Part shown: piece after piece, positions 3,526 through 51,061 of the stretch
Numbering within the stretch: position 1 is the first letter of the stretch
How the letters are laid out: every line of letters begins with the position of its first letter
Assembly: GCA_020060545.1 (NCBI GenBank)
Contig: JAGUZX010000050.1
Coordinates: forward strand, 1-51,246
Length of the DNA stretch: 51,246 nt
Direction of reading: 5' to 3'
Origin: Desulfovibrio sp.
Lineage (GTDB): Bacteria > Bacillota > Dethiobacteria > DTU022
Position numbers and translations under genes: made by a program
The notes under the pieces: model-generated
The model's input: the letters and a program-made list of their open reading frames with translations, nothing else
Databases searched by the model: none
Told to the model about the DNA's origin: nothing

Positions 3526-4032
3526 TTATGACGACCATCCAAACGGTTCGTAAAAACTAAGTTTCTTCGAATCCCTGTAGTCTTTGAGGGTTCCTTCCGG
3601 GGCAGCCGGTAGTCTCCAGTCGCTGACGAGACCATCCAGGCCGGTGCTGGTTAATATCTGGTTGTGGTGGTCGGTGCTGCTCTTGCTGTGAAGGCTCCTT
3701 GGAACGCCGTCGCGGCCCTTGAAGTATATAGAGTAGTCGGACTTTCGGGGAGGTGATCCCAAAGGCATCGTCCGCAACCCCATCCAAAGATAAACGGTTC
3801 CTTCCGGGGTACACGCAGGGCCTAAACCTGTCACCTTGGAGCCGTCGAACGTCGAAGCGGCAACTATCACGGCCTCACAGTCAGGCCCCCCGCAGGAGAT
3901 ACCCGGCGGCACTTCCGATGACGGGTACAGCCGATAATGCCCTGGCTCAACGGCGCTCTGGAAGGCGTCGAATACTACCGGCTCAATCTTTCGGGGTTTC
4001 CATTTCCGCATGTCTCTAATTATAGCACGCAT
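3526..4032 (-). CDS. Uncharacterised protein, possibly leaderless
   Basis: 168 residues from ATG 4032, or 161 from ATG 4011 (MRKWKPRKIEP). A TATAAT element at 4019-4024 lies between the two starts and predicts transcription starting near 4012, so ATG 4011 at the very 5' end of the mRNA is the better candidate. Neither start has a convincing ribosome site. No domain is recognised; the sequence has ISCGGPDCEAVIVAAS and a C-terminal FYEPFGWSS. It follows the MoxR/VWA group but has its own promoter. Confidence 0.6.
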   Translation of the reverse strand: MRAIIRDMRKWKPRKIEPVVFDAFQSAVEPGHYRLYPSSEVPPGISCGGPDCEAVIVAASTFDGSKVTGLGPACTPEGTVYLWMGLRTMPLGSPPRKSDYSIYFKGRDGVPRSLHSKSSTDHHNQILTSTGLDGLVSDWRLPAAPEGTLKDYRDSKKLSFYEPFGWSS

Positions 4033-4046
4033 GCGGGTCTAAAACA
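4019..4046 (-). promoter_or_regulatory. Promoter sharing a 16-bp element with the 10.7-kb promoter
   Basis: -10 TATAAT at 4019-4024, 17-bp spacer, -35 TTGTTT at 4042-4047, which overlaps the U-tract of the preceding terminator. The 16 bp at 4019-4034 (ATTATAGCACGCATGC on plus) is repeated exactly at 10709-10724 around another -10 element, suggesting shared regulation. Confidence 0.5.
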
Positions 4047-4073
4047 AGGGCGGGAGCCGAAACCCCCGCCCTT
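4041..4073 (-). terminator. Intrinsic terminator after the MoxR/VWA operon
   Basis: Perfect 9-bp stem (4065-4073 with 4046-4054, AAGGGCGGG/CCCGCCCTT) followed on minus by GTTTT. It lies 8 bp beyond the stop at 4081. Confidence 0.85.
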
Positions 4074-4080
4074 CCCCTTG

Positions 4081-9056: not shown

Positions 9057-9078
9057 CGCCATACCTCCTTTTGACTTA

Positions 9079-9114
9079 GGAGGCCCTGGATGTTATCATT
9101 TTTCCAGGGCCTCC
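9079..9114 (-). other. Strong hairpin without U-tract upstream of the radC-like gene
   Basis: Perfect 11-bp stem GGAGGCCCTGG/CCAGGGCCTCC (9079-9089 with 9104-9114), 14-nt U/A-rich loop, no following T-run on minus. It lies between two genes of the accessory operon and could stabilise or process the transcript rather than end it. Confidence 0.5.
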
Positions 9115-9161
9115 GGGTCCTACAGTGTGCGGCCGGTGTACCCTGCCCAGGGCCGGCCGTA

Positions 9162-9488
9162 CTACTCAAAATAAGGATGCGGGTAGAGCTTAATCCTCAC
9201 CTCCGTTATACGCTCTCCCCAGTCGGGAACGTCCTGGATGTCTGCCCAAACCTCGTAAACCCCATCGCCCAGGCCGGAAGTAAAGGCTACCGCCAATTTG
9301 CCGCCAAGGCTATCAATTACGGGGCCGCCTTGGTTATTGCCCTGAGTTGCCTCGCAACACTCCTGGTAACTGCCGCCGCCAAGACCGCCGTTGTTACCGT
9401 GCTTCCAGTGGCTGCCGATATAACAGGGGTCACAGATCATCAACTGGCCGGAATCGACAGCCGCCCTACCGAGTAAAACGGTCTTCAA
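9162..9488 (-). CDS. Uncharacterised phage protein with DPCY motif
   Basis: About 108 residues from TTG 9488, which has GGAGG 9 nt upstream; a longer frame to 9548 has no ribosome site and crosses a leader hairpin. The N-terminus VDSGQLMICDPCYIGSHW contains a DPCYI signature I associate with small phage proteins of unknown function (DUF4241-like, unverified), and the end is strand-rich (VYEVWADI...ITEVRIKLYP). The middle is a Gly-rich insert. Confidence 0.65.
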   Translation of the reverse strand: MKTVLLGRAAVDSGQLMICDPCYIGSHWKHGNNGGLGGGSYQECCEATQGNNQGGPVIDSLGGKLAVAFTSGLGDGVYEVWADIQDVPDWGERITEVRIKLYPHPYFE

Positions 9489-9525
9489 TGATAGACACCT
9501 CCTTTCTTGTTTCCTGCGCTCCACC

Positions 9526-9546
9526 GAGCCCGGCAGCCCCGGGCTC
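9526..9546 (-). ncRNA. GC hairpin of a repeated leader motif (copy 1)
   Basis: GAGCCCG/CGGGCTC stem followed on minus by GGTGGAG and then, about 20 nt further, the ribosome site of the gene at 9488. The same arrangement (GC-rich hairpin, GGTGGAG, A-rich linker, ribosome site) occurs at 10435-10465. It may be a small cis-regulatory RNA; its class is unknown. Confidence 0.35.
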
Positions 9547-9557
9547 AAGCAGCGTAG

Positions 9558-9731
9558 CTAACCGCGCCTGCTCTGAACCACCGTGACCTGGAACTCGTTG
9601 CCGCTTGGGAAGCTGAGAACTAACCCTTTGTTTCCCGCTTCTTCAAAAGTTCTAATTTGAATTGACTCTTCGTCATATCCCATCGCGTAAAGCGACTCTA
9701 TTAGCACGTTTACCATGCCTTGTTCGTCCAC
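9558..9731 (-). CDS. Uncharacterised small protein
   Basis: 57 residues from GTG 9731 (VDEQGMVNVLIESLYAMGY), with AAAGGAGG 8 nt upstream. Predicted helix followed by strands (GLVLSFPSGNEFQVTVVQ). No family recognised. It lies in a run of small genes in the accessory operon, 20 bp after the 81-residue gene. Confidence 0.6.
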   Translation of the reverse strand: MDEQGMVNVLIESLYAMGYDEESIQIRTFEEAGNKGLVLSFPSGNEFQVTVVQSRRG

Positions 9732-10046: not shown

Positions 10047-10409
10047 TTAACCGACCATCTTGAATACCCGCTTCATCTTGGAGATCGCGTCAACCATTTC
10101 GCAGTGCTCGCGCCGCAAGTCCTCAAGCTCCTGGTAAAGCCGCTTGCAGTCCTGAACCTTCCGGTTGTAGTTATCCTGCACCCTGTCGACCTCGGCCCTG
10201 GCCTTTTCCAGTTCCCTCTTGGCGTCTTCGGCTTCCTGGTAATACTGGTGTTTCAGGTCTTCGTACTCTACTACCGGGATCGCGAAGTCCATCTGCAACT
10301 GGTTTTCGATGTAAGCGTCCATGCCTTTCAGAATCCCTTTCAAGTAGCTGTCCTGCGGGAGCTTGTCGTAAAACTTCTTAAAGGTGGCTATTTCGTCGGC
10401 CTTGGTCAT
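10047..10409 (-). CDS. Coiled-coil protein, first gene of the accessory operon
   Basis: About 120 residues from ATG 10409 (MTKADEIATFKKFYDKLPQ), preceded by AAAGGGG. Residues about 45-110 are a long heptad-rich coiled coil (EYEDLKHQYYQEAEDAKRELEKA onward). An upstream in-frame start would run through a hairpin with no ribosome site. The gene stands behind a ~290-nt untranslated leader and a strong promoter near 10.71 kb, so it heads the block that ends with the MoxR/VWA and clamp genes. Confidence 0.7.
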   Translation of the reverse strand: MTKADEIATFKKFYDKLPQDSYLKGILKGMDAYIENQLQMDFAIPVVEYEDLKHQYYQEAEDAKRELEKARAEVDRVQDNYNRKVQDCKRLYQELEDLRREHCEMVDAISKMKRVFKMVG

Positions 10410-10702
10410 TTCGCATACCCCTTTCTGTTTTCTTGCTCTCCACCCGGCCCCCGGCAGGGGGCCGTAGCAAAGCAAGTTCACCCTTGCTTTAGTTTTGGTT
10501 TCCCGCCGGCCTCTGACCTACTCGTCGTGCTCCCCGCCTGGCTCCCCTTAGTCTTTAGCCCCGGTCTCCCTGTCTTCTGGTCCCCGCCTTAGTTGTCAGG
10601 GTCTCTTGCCGTGCCCCTTGGGGCCTCGCGCGGATCGTGGCCTATAACCTTTCGGTGCGTACTACCGGCCTCGGTTTTCGTCTGTCAATGTTCAATCTTC
10701 CT
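10410..10702 (-). ncRNA. Long structured 5' leader of the accessory operon
   Basis: About 290 nt between the promoter (-10 at 10709-10714) and ATG 10409 with no plausible ORF. Visible hairpins on minus include AAGCAAG/CTTGCTT, then an 8-bp CGGCCCCC/GGGGGCCG stem with loop TGCC, enclosed by CTTGCT/AGCAAG. G-rich repeated boxes (GGGGACC, GGGGAGC) lie further upstream. It could be a riboswitch-like leader or a stable RNA processed from the mRNA. No known RNA class is recognised. Confidence 0.45.
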
Positions 10703-10708
10703 ATTATC

Positions 10709-10797
10709 ATTATAGCACGCATGCTATAATTAATGCAATCGGTTACAACAAAGTTTTTTAGTTTTTCGCCGAAATATTTCTTAGATTTTCGCCGAAA
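10709..10797 (-). promoter_or_regulatory. Regulated promoter of the accessory operon
   Basis: -10 TATAAT (10709-10714), 18-bp spacer, -35 TTGCAT (10733-10738). The -10 is one arm of a perfect palindrome ATTATAGCA-4-TGCTATAAT (10709-10730). Upstream, two copies of TTTCGCCGAAA (10764-10774 and 10787-10797), each itself palindromic, are 23 bp apart, i.e. near two helical turns. This looks like a promoter with a repressor site and a pair of activator or repressor sites. Confidence 0.7.
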
Positions 10798-10831
10798 CCG
10801 GGGGGCTAATTAGGAGGGCTAAAGACGCGAA

Positions 10832-10859
10832 AAGCCCCCGGACCGAAGCCCAGGGGCTT
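10832..10859 (-). terminator. Terminator at the end of the late operon
   Basis: 10-bp stem AAGCCCCTGG/CCGGGGGCTT (one G-U) with 8-nt loop, followed by TTTCGCG; it lies 21 bp past the holin stop. The U-tract is short. Confidence 0.65.
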
Positions 10860-10879
10860 ATGTCGTGCGACCAGATAAA

Positions 10880-13118: not shown

Positions 13119-13508
13119 TTATTTGACACTGTTAACAATCGCCATACTCACCGCTACCACGGCGGCCAAGGTTGATATTAAAGCGACCGCGAAAGACGCC
13201 GTGAAGCGATTCCTGGTGCCGGTGTTTGCGTCGTCCTTTTGCCTCGCCGTCATACACTCGTTTCTGGCGGTGTGGCAGTTGTTTTTGCTCATATAGGTTT
13301 CCGCCAGGCGTTCGCGCATGTCCCCTGTACACTTTTTGACCGCGTTGACTTCGCTCCACAGGGCCCGGATGTCGCCTCTCATCTCGCCAACGTTGGTTTT
13401 GACATCATCTCTGATCCTGCCGACGTCGGTTTTGACATCTTCTTTTATAGCGTTGATCATCTGGATGATCAGCTGGCCTTCGGCGGACAGCTTCACCTGG
13501 TCGCCCAA
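13119..13508 (-). CDS. XhlA-like membrane-anchored coiled-coil protein
   Basis: 129 residues from TTG 13508 with GGAGG upstream. A heptad-rich region (IKEDVKTDVGRIRDDVKTNVGEMRGDI) is followed by one C-terminal transmembrane helix (FAVALISTLAAVVAVSMAIV). This layout is that of hemolysin XhlA-type proteins, which assist holin/endolysin lysis at the membrane. Position beside the endolysin agrees. Confidence 0.7.
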   Translation of the reverse strand: MGDQVKLSAEGQLIIQMINAIKEDVKTDVGRIRDDVKTNVGEMRGDIRALWSEVNAVKKCTGDMRERLAETYMSKNNCHTARNECMTARQKDDANTGTRNRFTASFAVALISTLAAVVAVSMAIVNSVK

Positions 13509-13784: not shown

Positions 13785-14228
13785 TTAGTAGAGTTCAACA
13801 ATTATGGCAGACAATATGCCATAAGTTCCACTACTTGCTAAAGAGTATGATAAAGCAACAGTAAGCTGAGTATTCGTAAAGCCAGAAATATAATAGTGCG
13901 CTGCGAAATAATAGGTATATGAGCCATCAGAAGTAGAGCCCCTACCAGCCCCATTTAGGAAAACCAAACATTTGCTACTCGTTACGCTGGTAATATTTAC
14001 GGTATATGGAGAATTATCAGGCGAAAAGGTCACCCGCTGCCACGATTTTACCTTCGTGGCCAGCCACCCCATAACGGTATTATCCGCGCGCACATCAGCG
14101 GAGTCGCCGATCTTGTTGTCTGCGACATTCTTAACCTTCGCGTGCAGGCTCCCCGCCGCGTCTGCGGTGTCGGTTCTTAGCCCGACCTGGCGCCTTATCC
14201 AGCTTAAAATCTCCTCAATGCCGAACAT
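13785..14228 (-). CDS. Putative tail fibre/appendage protein
   Basis: 147 residues. A short N-terminal helix (FGIEEILSWIRRQVG), a linker rich in DNA-fibre-like repeats, then a Ser/Thr/Tyr-rich beta region (SDGSYTYYFAAHYYISGFTNTQLTVALSYSLASSG) like phage fibre tips. ATG overlaps the previous stop (GTAATG), so it is translated with the gene at 14962. Probably host recognition. Confidence 0.6.
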   Translation of the reverse strand: MFGIEEILSWIRRQVGLRTDTADAAGSLHAKVKNVADNKIGDSADVRADNTVMGWLATKVKSWQRVTFSPDNSPYTVNITSVTSSKCLVFLNGAGRGSTSDGSYTYYFAAHYYISGFTNTQLTVALSYSLASSGTYGILSAIIVELY

Positions 14229-14962
14229 TACGCCACCTCACCTTTCTTCAGATACTCGCCGCTGAACGTGTACGTCACTATCTGACGTATCCCGCCCGCC
14301 GTGGTGTCGCTTGGCGGCAGGTAGCGGTAAACTTTGCTCAAGACTTCACCGCTGAACTCAAGCGTGCTGTGCCCGCTCGGGGGGTACGTCCGGTGTTTTA
14401 ACTCGCCGCTCTCGCCTGAGAACACTTTAAAATGGATGCTGTTCTCCAGCGTCCACGCGCCGGAACCGCCCTTCAGTCGGTAATACGCCGGGTAGTTCGC
14501 GTCCGGCGTGGTCTCCCCGTGGGCGTGGAAGTGGTTCGTCGCGTCGCCGGCGCCGCGGACCACGATCCAGTACTGGTTGCCGGCGGTGAGGCCGGTCAGG
14601 TCAAGCGGTATGCTCCAGTAGCTCCGGCCGGCGGGAAGGAATTCCTTTGGTACCACCACTGTCTTCAGCAGCGTGCCTTCGGTGGTGCCGCCTGGGTCAA
14701 AGCCGCTACGGATTTCAATTTGTAGGTCTGCGCCCGTACCGTGTTTAATCAGTTCGAGTTCCAGCCTGGCGATCTCCGTAACACCGGTGGCGGTGAATCT
14801 CAGCGCGTGGTCGTAGCTCGCGTTATCGAACTCGGCGGTACCAGCCCCGGCCTTCGCGTCCACCTGGCTGCCTTCGTAAATCAGGGCGAAGTCGTGGAAG
14901 GAGATAAGCTCGTTCATGTTGGTTTCGTCGAACGCCGTAACATTGTTCTTGAAAGCGTTCAC
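14228..14962 (-). CDS. Tail appendage protein, beta-sandwich type
   Basis: 244 residues from GTG 14962. The middle (ATGVTEIARLELELIKHGTG through GRSYWSIPLDLTGLTAGNQYWIVVRG) matches the pattern of beta-sandwich carbohydrate- or surface-binding repeats found in phage fibres and secreted proteins. The C-terminus (IRQIVTYTFSGEYLKKGEV) is strand-rich. Likely part of the baseplate or fibre set with its neighbours. Confidence 0.65.
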   Translation of the reverse strand: MNAFKNNVTAFDETNMNELISFHDFALIYEGSQVDAKAGAGTAEFDNASYDHALRFTATGVTEIARLELELIKHGTGADLQIEIRSGFDPGGTTEGTLLKTVVVPKEFLPAGRSYWSIPLDLTGLTAGNQYWIVVRGAGDATNHFHAHGETTPDANYPAYYRLKGGSGAWTLENSIHFKVFSGESGELKHRTYPPSGHSTLEFSGEVLSKVYRYLPPSDTTAGGIRQIVTYTFSGEYLKKGEVA

Positions 14963-34198: not shown

Positions 34199-34274
34199 TG
34201 GGCCGCCGGGAGGGACTCGAACCCTCCATGCCCCGTGTAAAGAGCACGGTGCTCTACCGTTGAGCTACGGGCGG
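34199..34274 (-). tRNA. tRNA, anticodon CUU by position (Lys)
   Basis: 76 nt with encoded CCA. Acceptor CCGCCCG/CCGGCGG (one C-C mismatch), D stem GCTC/GAGC, perfect anticodon stem CCGTG/CACGG, T arm GAGGG-TTCGAGT-CCCTC. The anticodon loop CTCTTTA puts CTT at 34-36. U at 37 is odd (A is usual) and the variable loop has six nt, so identity is less certain than the fold. It is phage-borne, between a DUF488 gene and the methyltransferase. Confidence 0.8.
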
Positions 34275-47054: not shown

Positions 47055-47646
47055 TGCAGGCCGCCCCCTTCCCGTTCTCCGGCTTTCGGGCTTCGATCAC
47101 CCGGCTGGCCCACATGTCGGCCCAGTGCAGGATCATCTGCAGCGGAGTCTCCCTGCCCTGGATAACGCGGCCGTCGGGCGTGTATAGGCCGTTGTGGTAG
47201 AGGATCGCGTAAGTCTCTTCCTCGGTCAGGTAGATGTACTGGCTCAGGATGTGGACGCTGGCCACCTGGTGCGGGATCGGCAAGCGCTCCGGGTTGCAGC
47301 AGTAAGGCTTGCTGTCGCTGACCTTGCCGCTTTTTACCCGGTTCTGGATGTAGTGCGGTTTGGAGTAGTACATCGACTTACCCAGGTCGTGGAACAGGCC
47401 GCAGATGATCAGGGAATCGTCGGGGATGTCGTCTTTGTCCAGCCCAAAGGCGTTGCGCAGCCGGAACATCAGGCCGGTGACGTTCAGCGAGTGCCGGAGG
47501 TTGCCGGCCTCGCAGGCGCCGTGGTACTGGGTGCTGGACGGCGCGGTGAAATAGTCGCCTACGGCCAGGTAAAATACAAGGTGCTCTATGCCTTCGCGTT
47601 GGACACGGCGTAAATATTCAAATAACTCGTCTTTCAAGTCTTTCAA
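47044..47646 (-). CDS. HD-domain phosphohydrolase
   Basis: 200 residues from TTG 47646, TTGA overlap with the upstream HTH gene. H in GNLRHSLNV, HD in LFHDLGKSMYYS, later PHQVASVH and WADMWAS make a complete HD metal site. Possible substrates are nucleotides or cyclic nucleotides. It overlaps the gp3-like start by 11 bp. Confidence 0.88.
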   Translation of the reverse strand: MKDLKDELFEYLRRVQREGIEHLVFYLAVGDYFTAPSSTQYHGACEAGNLRHSLNVTGLMFRLRNAFGLDKDDIPDDSLIICGLFHDLGKSMYYSKPHYIQNRVKSGKVSDSKPYCCNPERLPIPHQVASVHILSQYIYLTEEETYAILYHNGLYTPDGRVIQGRETPLQMILHWADMWASRVIEARKPENGKGAACNAD

Positions 47647-47909
47647 GCCGATTCTCCTCCTTTTTGTCCAGGCTTGACCTGCGCGTAGACGAAGGCGATC
47701 TGTCCCGGCTCGTACAGGTGGCCCGGCGTGACTCCAAGGTACTGCGCCAGTTTTTCCACCTCGTCGGGCGTCGGAACGATATGCCCGTTCTCCAGCATCG
47801 ACAGCCTGGACCGTTTAATGCCGATGTGTTCGGCGACCGCCTGCTGGGACGCAGGCTTAGCGCCTTCGGCAAGCAACTTTTCGCGGTAAAAGCGGATACC
47901 GTTCTGCAT
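47643..47909 (-). CDS. XRE-family HTH regulator
   Basis: 88 residues from ATG 47909. An HTH_3 domain covers 1-65 (ASQQAVAEHIGIKRSRLSMLENGHIVPTPDEVEKLAQYLGV) with a short tail. Probably a Cro-like or early transcription regulator. Confidence 0.88.
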   Translation of the reverse strand: MQNGIRFYREKLLAEGAKPASQQAVAEHIGIKRSRLSMLENGHIVPTPDEVEKLAQYLGVTPGHLYEPGQIAFVYAQVKPGQKGGESA

Positions 47910-48454: not shown

Positions 48455-49003
48455 CTACTTTTTCTGAGCGCCGTTCGGGCGCTTTCTCTTTTCTGGGTAC
48501 TCCTTGTCGATGTTCTCCTGCTCGACCTCGTCGTACAGATCCGCCAGGCTGATGTCCCAGCCGTCAGAGACCACACAGAGGAACGTTTCAGCAGCGCGTA
48601 TGGCCTGAATCACCTCCCGGAACATCCCTCTGGCCTGCGTTTTCTCAGGTTCGGTCAAAAGAGGGTTCAGCCACAGCCGGGGGGTTCCGCGAACCGCCTC
48701 CCCGGCTTCTTCCAATTCCAGCAGGAAATAATCCCTGGCCACAAGGCGGTGGTTTTCGATATTTGCCAGGGAAAGGGCCATCACCCCGCCGGTGGCCTCC
48801 CGCTGTAGGGCCTTGTAGAACCGTGCCTGATCGAGCGCCCGGGCGAGGTGCCGCCGCATTTCCTTCGTTATGCCCCGCTGGCCCTGTTCGATCTTGCGGA
48901 CCAGGCTGCCGCTGCAGTGGGCCTTCTCTGCGAGCGCGTCGGCGCTCCGTCCCGTTTTCTTCCTTTCCTCCCTGAGAATTGTCCCAAGTTCCAGTTTGAT
49001 CAC
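48455..49003 (-). CDS. Cro/C1-type HTH regulator with long C-terminal part
   Basis: 182 residues from GTG 49003. HTH in REERKKTGRSADALAEKAHCSGSLVRKIEQGQRGITKEMRRHLARAL, then a helical region (VIQAIRAAETFLCVVSDGWDISLADLYDEVEQENID) that resembles phage regulators of early genes. Basic end (EYPEKRKRPNGAQKK). Confidence 0.8.
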   Translation of the reverse strand: MIKLELGTILREERKKTGRSADALAEKAHCSGSLVRKIEQGQRGITKEMRRHLARALDQARFYKALQREATGGVMALSLANIENHRLVARDYFLLELEEAGEAVRGTPRLWLNPLLTEPEKTQARGMFREVIQAIRAAETFLCVVSDGWDISLADLYDEVEQENIDKEYPEKRKRPNGAQKK

Positions 49004-49329: not shown

Positions 49330-49761
49330 ATGAAATACCTTGTTGAGCTGATCGGCGACTGTGACCACAAAGAGCTGCAGCGTAAAATCAACTACTGGTT
49401 ACGGGCGGAAAGGCCCCGCCGGGTCTACAGTGTCCAGTTTGTCGCCGACGGAACCGAGCTTACTTACTGCTGCCTGTTCCTTTACGCGCCGGGCAGATCG
49501 GCGGGCCGGTCGTCATCGGCCACAAACAAAACGCCTGGGGGGACGCCGAAGGGTTCAGCGATCCGCCGGGCGTTTCGTAGTTTGGTTTTCTTGCCCTTCT
49601 CGATCCGGCACAACCAGGCGGGTGACATACCAATTAGGCAGGCCAGGTGCGCGAGCGACCAGCCGCGGCCTACCCGCATCATCTGGAGCATCGTCACACC
49701 ATACTCGTTACGCCGGGGCTCAACGAGCAGGATGTCTGTAGCCCGCCGGTGCTCCTGGTGA
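49330..49761 (+). CDS. Cse60-like small protein with antisense-overlapping extension
   Basis: ATG 49330 has GAGG 6 nt upstream. The first 55 residues (MKYLVELIGDCDHKELQRKI, then a RVYSVQFVADGTELTYCCLFLYAP segment) follow the pattern of Cse60, a small B. subtilis sporulation protein. Beyond that (to residue 143) the frame is only the complement of the HTH gene at 49482 and looks meaningless, so the ancestral stop may have been lost. It is opposite to the early operon, which would be transcribed through it antisense. The Cse60 match is from memory. Confidence 0.5.
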   Translation: MKYLVELIGDCDHKELQRKINYWLRAERPRRVYSVQFVADGTELTYCCLFLYAPGRSAGRSSSATNKTPGGTPKGSAIRRAFRSLVFLPFSIRHNQAGDIPIRQARCASDQPRPTRIIWSIVTPYSLRRGSTSRMSVARRCSW

Positions 49762-49877
49762 ATGATCTGGTGTATCCGCTGGCGGCTGATCCGCAGTTCC
49801 CTGGCCACGGCAGCCTGTGTATCTCCGTTAGCCAGTTGGCTGATGATTTGCTTGGTCCGCTCGGCCATGTGCGCCAA
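49482..49877 (-). CDS. Early regulator with two HTH domains
   Basis: 131 residues from TTG 49877 (GAGG 8 nt upstream). First HTH: QIISQLANGDTQAAVARELRISRQRIHQII (resolvase/sigma-like). Second: LQMMRVGRGWSLAHLACLIGMSPAWLCRIEKGKKTKLRNARRIAEPFGV (XRE type). As first gene behind the early promoter and its operators, it is the likely Cro-equivalent. Confidence 0.82.
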   Translation of the reverse strand: MAHMAERTKQIISQLANGDTQAAVARELRISRQRIHQIIHQEHRRATDILLVEPRRNEYGVTMLQMMRVGRGWSLAHLACLIGMSPAWLCRIEKGKKTKLRNARRIAEPFGVPPGVLFVADDDRPADLPGA

Positions 49878-49889
49878 AATAACCACCTC

Positions 49890-49961: not shown

Positions 49962-49990
49962 TTGGGCTTCCCAAGTTGGTAGAATAAACT
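49962..49990 (+). promoter_or_regulatory. Repressor-maintenance promoter
   Basis: -35 TTGGGC (49962-49967 by best fit), 17-bp spacer, -10 TAAACT (49985-49990). It is divergent to the early promoter and near the same operators, as in lambda pRM/pR. Confidence 0.55.
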
Positions 49991-50007
49991 TGCGGGGTGA
50001 GGAGATT

Positions 50008-50484
50008 ATGAGCATCCTTGGGGATAGACTTAGACGTATCCGGGAAATGCAAGACCCGCCGTTGCTGCAGAAGACGGCCGCGCGGGAAATGGGCATGGAG
50101 CCGAACACCCTCAGCCGTTATGAGTTGGGGGAACGTGAGCCGGACGCCGAAACCCTGGTCAAGCTCGCCGAATACTACGGTACCACGACGGATTATTTAT
50201 TGGGCAGGGCCAACAACCCGAACCTGCCGGAAGAAAGGGAAAACGGCGTGATGCAACTCGTGCCCCACCACGCCAGAGACCGGGTAGAAGCATTCTCGGA
50301 GCTTGGGGAGATAGCGGATCGGGCCGGTCTTTCGTCCGAGCAGATTACGAAGTTAATTAAGGTGATCGCCGAAGTGATTGCGCCGCCCAAGGGCAGCAGG
50401 AAAAGCAGTTTGGCGGCGCACATGGAGAGCCCTCAACCGGGGCAGGTCGCTGGCGGGTGTGTTGATGGGGACGATAACCATTGA
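50008..50484 (+). CDS. C1-like phage repressor
   Basis: 158 residues from ATG 50008 (GAGGAG upstream). HTH domain: LLQKTAAREMGMEPNTLSRYELGEREPDAETLVKLAEYYGTTTDYLLG. The C-terminal part is short, helical and Pro/Gly-rich without the Ser/Lys site of LexA-like self-cleaving repressors. Inactivation is therefore likely by the ImmA-like protein next door. Overlaps it by 20 bp. Confidence 0.88.
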   Translation: MSILGDRLRRIREMQDPPLLQKTAAREMGMEPNTLSRYELGEREPDAETLVKLAEYYGTTTDYLLGRANNPNLPEERENGVMQLVPHHARDRVEAFSELGEIADRAGLSSEQITKLIKVIAEVIAPPKGSRKSSLAAHMESPQPGQVAGGCVDGDDNH

Positions 50485-51052: not shown

Positions 51053-51061
51053 TAAGCATCT
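51053..51061. other. attR: attR, right attachment core
   Basis: TAAGCATCT, identical to 88-96. Bases to the right are prkA, bases to the left are phage. In the excised circle this phage side supplies the last 27 integrase codons and its stop. Confidence 0.85.

Follow-up and report, generated by a model that had tools for sequence, protein, structure and literature searches.

Two copies of a covarying hairpin element precede ribosome-binding sites in a prophage accessory operon and may be sites of mRNA processing

Introduction

Phage transcripts carry several RNase III signals at which an asymmetric internal loop interrupts a hairpin. The best comparison for the present work is R1.1 of phage T7, which lies between T7 genes 1.0 and 1.1 and is reported to have a 4/5-nt asymmetric internal loop (PMC6121014 for R1.1; PMC6121014 and PMC4858673 for the occurrence of several signals). 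Here we describe hairpins of a similar build in a prophage. The analysed window, 51,246 nucleotides in length, is one whole contig of a 2.5-Mb draft genome. The original prediction had proposed a regulated promoter and a long structured leader in front of an accessory operon. We show that the last 85 nt of this leader are a structured, covarying RNA element, which is shared with the flank of the fourth gene of the operon. This duplication was absent from the original prediction.

Results

Prophage setting and operon layout

The window is a prophage in which the minus strand carries nearly all genes. Starting from the right end, genes for regulators and replication are followed by those for terminase, portal, capsid, tail and endolysin and then by the leader region. 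To the left of it lie radC and the genes for a MoxR ATPase, a vWA protein, DUF6744 and a sliding clamp, with a large serine recombinase at the left end. The accessory operon, from about 10702 to 4046 on the minus strand, is a prophage operon located between the lysis genes and the integrase. Its main features are:

10829-10859, minus strand: terminator-like hairpin AAGCCCCTGG...CCGGGGGCTTTTCG after the lysis genes, with a short, imperfect U-tract, seen in the sequence
10047-10409, minus strand: operon gene 1, starting at ATG 10409, encoding a coiled-coil-like protein of ~120 aa (weak coiled-coil matches only)
9162-9488, minus strand: operon gene 4, starting at TTG 9488, PHROG 5209 (function unknown)
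4046-4077, minus strand: intrinsic terminator, seen in the sequence and folded, probably the operon end
4019-4047, minus strand: second promoter with 16 bases, GCATGCGTGCTATAAT, identical to the accessory promoter but without the palindrome's left half

The hairpin at 10829-10859 is absent from the output of the terminator scan, which requires five T in eight. The 16 bases GCATGCGTGCTATAAT recur at 4034-4019, just past the strong terminator. This points to an operon end at that position and to a second unit that has part of the signal in common. As the predicted transcription start of this second promoter is within a few bases of ATG 4011 (window 4019-4011), the gene at 3526-4011 may be nearly leaderless.

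The genes for the MoxR ATPase (bpMoxR), the vWA protein and DUF6744 are found together in one phage operon (window 7654-4081). For MoxR-vWA pairs of jumbo phages, a role in virion assembly has been proposed (PMC7824862). Defence-system models gave no convincing match on the tested operon genes. The prophage splits prkA of the host, positions 182-245 of the PrkA model being found at the right end (51246-51048) and positions 236-272 at the left end (112-5), and AGATGCTTA is common to both ends, near 51061 and 96. In this it resembles prophages inserted in sporulation genes.

Promoter and operator

The region upstream of the operon contains the following signals and, elsewhere in the window, there are four candidates for the repressor:

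10709-10738, minus strand: promoter TTGCAT-18-TATAAT with extended -10 TGCTATAAT, from sequence, expression predicted
10709-10730, no strand assigned: 9-4-9 palindrome ATTATAGCAN4TGCTATAAT over the -10, exact, single occurrence in the window, likely operator
10754-10797, minus strand: two 21-nt direct repeats with a period of 23, each with the near-palindrome TTTCGCCGAAA, candidate regulator sites
48455-49003 (minus strand), 49482-49886 (minus strand) and 49990-50484 (plus strand): HTH proteins by Pfam, candidate repressors
47643-47909, minus strand: HTH protein by eye, candidate repressor

On the minus strand, TTGCAT (10738-10733) and TATAAT (10714-10709) are separated by an 18-nt spacer. The former is a weak -35 that matches the consensus in three of six bases. 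The latter is a perfect -10 with a TG in front of it, hence an extended -10. Judged by these elements, the accessory promoter is better called an extended -10 promoter than a TTGCAT/TATAAT promoter. The extended -10 TGNTATAAT is present at four sites in the window (0.48 expected) and here has a dyad over it, as in a repressible extended -10 phage promoter. The output of a generic promoter scan did not include the accessory promoter.

TTGCAT and TATAAT had both been placed in a perfect palindrome. This holds for TATAAT, which lies inside the exact 9-4-9 palindrome, whereas TTGCAT lies just outside. The palindrome was matched within three mismatches in none of 100 shuffles, and an inverted repeat with 9-bp arms was seen in 1.25% of 2000 local shuffles. 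Its core with 7-base arms is absent from 42 other genomes of the family. The two predicted upstream sites 23 bp apart were recovered as TTTCGCCGAAA at 10764-10774 and 10787-10797, within the 21-nt direct repeat (90% identity), some 55-95 bp 5' of the inferred start; among local shuffles, 1.2% had an exact 11-mer repeat.

The early promoter of the same prophage (TTGACA-17-TATAAT, 49927-49890) also has a 9-4-9 dyad, GGTGATTTAN4TAAATCACC, over its -10. Both promoters are in this respect like phage repressor-operator promoters of the cI/Cro type. In contrast to those, the accessory operator is located after the lysis genes, at the accessory operon, and its sequence is unlike that of the early operator, so that a different regulator is likely. 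We infer from the dyad that the operator would cover the extended -10 promoter and that a dimeric regulator, probably phage-encoded, likely represses it. That the promoter is regulated, as originally proposed, is well supported by its anatomy and by the dyad-bearing promoters found both elsewhere in the window and in a related phage (L036, tail protein 50% identical). The latter has a TTTACA-17-TATAAT promoter after its lysis genes, with a dyad in the spacer, and there also a terminator-like hairpin by eye, but its leader is just ~44 nt. Thus, the promoter plan is common to both phages and the long leader is not. When the palindrome was used as bait, it was found in eight viral contigs with flanks that differ from the window. 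Pairs of TTTCGSCGAAA were found in three viral contigs.

Length and structure of the leader

Between the inferred start near 10702 and ATG 10409, ~293 nt are free of a convincing reading frame, in agreement with the ~290 untranslated nt predicted. On a rough ORF map of the window, the gap at 10410-10879 (470 nt) is among the longest, and the three larger raw gaps contain further ORFs. A leader peptide was considered and rejected: the ORF at 10642-10722 begins upstream of the inferred start, and the in-frame GTG 10481 lacks a properly spaced ribosome-binding site.

Nested hairpins had been predicted for the leader. In models run at 37 C only, the full leader does not fold better than its shuffles (z -0.44; 66 of 200 fold equally well), whereas ~10502-10423, about the last 85 nt, is clearly stabler, and no other part is (z -4.6 for the best 60-nt stretch, and -3.8 at the same size). 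The remaining part is:

10503-10702, minus strand: first ~200 nt of the leader, without a coding frame, excess structure or any relative found; unexplained

No relatives of the leader DNA were found in 42 other genomes of the family or in the phage records searched, and a longer leader query matched an amidase gene as its sole hit in phage records. An exact 11-base complementary pair, GTCTTTAGCCC/GGGCTAAAGAC (10826-10816 and 10561-10551), connects the leader with the last part of the lysis terminator region; this could be chance. The leader may give a stable RNA.

At the gathering score, the only Rfam match in the window is a tRNA at 34202-34274. With permissive filters, the best match in the leader is the ilvH RNA (RF02993) at 10482-10419, which it resembles loosely in overall shape. 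The match reaches 18 bits of the 55.1 needed (E 0.7), and the leader is therefore not a member of this family. No minus-strand terminator is listed in the leader, as would be needed for an intrinsic attenuator. The proposed riboswitch is not supported, given the lack of an Rfam match for the leader, hairpins without a U-tract and an open ribosome-binding site.

A second copy of the leader hairpin

The structured end of the leader (E1) has a second copy (E2) in the same operon:

10405-10488, minus strand: E1, with outer stem 10476-10469/10439-10432, inner stem 10464-10457/10452-10445, internal loop GCUA/GGUGG, and a tail with the ribosome-binding site AAAGGGG followed by ATG 10409
9487-9570, minus strand: E2, with inner stem GAGCCCGG/CCGGGCTC, internal loop GCUU/GGUGG, and the tail AAAGGAGG followed by TTG 9488
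10483-10490, minus strand: AAAGCAAG, potential competitor for the 5' arm of the E1 outer stem, CTTGCTTT

E2 was found with a covariance model, R1, built on 10500-10405 with two identical copies as input. When the whole window was searched with filters off, this model retrieved E2 at 9558-9499 on the same strand with 26.6 bits (E 4e-4; E-values of this model and of model R2 below are rough), the next-best match being the plus-strand image of the first hairpin (E 0.081). E2 occupies the gap between the stop codon at 9560-9558 and the start codon TTG 9488 of gene 4. Among 780 pairs from 40 gene-start flanks, picked by hand, E1 and E2 are the most alike (score 36, next pair 26), a value reached in none of 5000 shuffles.

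The two copies have GGUGGAGnGCAnGAAA in common; GGUGGAG, GCA, GAAA and GAAAGG are found in both. Their stems differ by five two-sided compensatory changes, and E2 loses two outer-stem pairs. In the alignment, 93.3% of cells are paired and five of 15 pairs are changed on both sides, against none in all six slid controls; 19 of 500 shuffles reached the observed covariation, which with two rows is a weak test. Each copy is built of two helices around a 4/5-nt asymmetric internal loop, for E2 in the model alignment, whereas its minimum-energy fold closes the loop partly (pairs 9549-9522, 9548-9524 and 9547-9525) and adds outer pairs. E1 and E2 are both directly 5' of a ribosome-binding site, which is left open in their minimum-energy folds. 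Instead of a U-tract, GGGUGGAG or AAAACAG comes after the hairpins, so the element is not an intrinsic terminator. Other hairpins, unlike E1 and E2, also stand close to ribosome-binding sites, as before radC (9062), so that position alone tells little about E1 and E2. The radC hairpin, GGAGGCCCTGGA...TCCAGGGCCTCC (12 bp, window 9063-9125), lies just before the ribosome-binding site and differs from E1 and E2 in sequence.

Search for further copies

A comparative covariance-model search, suggested along with the original prediction, produced the second copy in the same operon, and nothing at E <= 0.1 for R1 in 96 other genomes of the class, where filters were stricter than in the window search. 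Of the regulated leader proposed, the last ~85 nt stand by virtue of the second copy at 9558-9499; the remainder does not. The model R2 gave matches at E <= 1 in nine other genomes of the class (best 23.1 bits). Those ranked highest, L052 and L053, fall within long ORFs, and in the next one, L054, six of 15 pairs are broken, so we count them as chance and the E-values of R2 as too hopeful.

There was no convincing third copy in the window, the 96 other genomes of the class or the phage records searched. The element thus stands as two copies in one phage, and the other record with them is identical. A record named Ammonifex sp. SURF_55 has 12,491 bases identical to window 13032-542. A 36.8-kb viral contig (L028) is identical to the window in 13,882 of 14,330 fetched bases. 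Over the last 448 of these (13883-14330; window about 14137 and below), the match is lost, at window 14138, in a gene after the tail genes and before the leader is reached; this is a variant or an assembly end. The motif GGTGGAGNGCANGAAA followed by AAAGG was present in four viral contigs, of which one (L047) scored 12.8 bits and three were without a score. In Moorella phage MTATph1, where the gene after E2 has a relative, the element is absent.

With MoxR, the terminase and the tail protein as bait, viral relatives were found, and none were found for operon gene 1 and the holin-like gene. Three of the nine tail-protein loci (L034, L035 and L036) extend past the lysis genes, L035 by only ~640 bases, and none contains the operon. 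Downstream of its lysis genes, the L034 contig breaks off within a type IV Cas7 (Csf2) gene, of which it has the start (13144-13401, PADLOC E 1.7e-17).

Discussion

We favour, with a probability of roughly 40%, E1 and E2 as mRNA-processing hairpins in the transcript of a repressible promoter. Host RNase III or a similar enzyme would cut both at the asymmetric internal loop. The resulting mRNAs would begin with almost the same short sequence, GGAGnGCAnGAAAnAnGAAAGG, and their ribosome-binding sites would be exposed; the cut at E1 would in addition split off the 5'-most ~250 nt as an RNA of its own. A gene for RNase III is present in the host genome (TIGR02191, 256 bits; cut-off 166.25). Together with the R1.1-like 4/5 loop, the missing U-tract and the open ribosome-binding site, this led us to rank processing first and translational control second.

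As translational operators, E1 and E2 would be bound by a phage or host protein at the hairpin and the G-rich loop GGUGG close to the ribosome-binding site, which would set translation of both genes together. This is a possible but doubtful alternative. The most conserved stretch (GGUGGAGnGCAnGAAA, then GAAAGG) connects the internal loop with the ribosome-binding site and stem pairing is kept despite sequence change, as expected for such operators, but neither minimum-energy fold sequesters the ribosome-binding site. It is unlikely that E1 and E2 merely descend from a copied cassette of hairpin and ribosome-binding site with a generic effect, such as stability or insulation from upstream transcripts. 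Hairpins before gene starts are indeed common in the prophage (radC 9062, 4032, 3216, 18019 and 34141), but the pairing-preserving changes suggest selection on structure, even if two sequences are few. Still less likely, in our view, is that E1 and E2 belong to an RNA element outside Rfam that would mark selected operon genes so that a factor encoded by the phage controls them jointly after transcription, the first ~250 nt freed by the E1 cut being a small RNA with targets of its own.

A two-state switch (attenuator or riboswitch) at the leader end, in which AAAGCAAG (10490-10483) and AGAGCAAG (10439-10432) would compete for CUUGCUUU (10476-10469), is improbable. The two-hairpin and extended forms of E1 differ by just 0.5 kcal/mol (-29.5 and -30.0), modelled growing transcripts shift from the first towards the second, and such a competing triple occurs in 1.7% of 3000 shuffles, a test picked after the triple was seen. 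However, E2 favours the extended form (-42.4 kcal/mol, against -38.1 with the alternative forced), and neither form is a terminator or covers the ribosome-binding site. That no long leader is in use, with a start elsewhere or a decayed gene in the gap, is very improbable: the first 200 nt, with no structure in excess of shuffles and no relatives found, and the poor -35 TTGCAT would fit, but no minus-strand promoter closer to the gene was found by the scan, all minus-strand frames of the leader contain stops, and the perfect -10, its TG extension and the dyad fall together.

The presence of repeated, covarying hairpins beside the ribosome-binding sites of a prophage points to a level of control, overlooked by genome annotation, that acts once transcription has started. 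If RNase III processes them, the arrangement of T7 early mRNA would reach a temperate phage whose host is a very different bacterium. With two copies in one operon, the element can be tested side by side.

The comparison with T7 R1.1 has two sides. The host belongs to another bacterial lineage, the energy model closes part of the E2 loop, and the 4/5 loop is a simple feature that could coincide, the likeness resting on loop size and not on sequence. On the other hand, E1, and E2 in the model alignment, share with R1.1 and related signals the intercistronic type of two-helix hairpin with a 4/5-nt asymmetric internal loop, and both copies are likewise placed 5' of a ribosome-binding site, E1 in a leader and E2 between cistrons.
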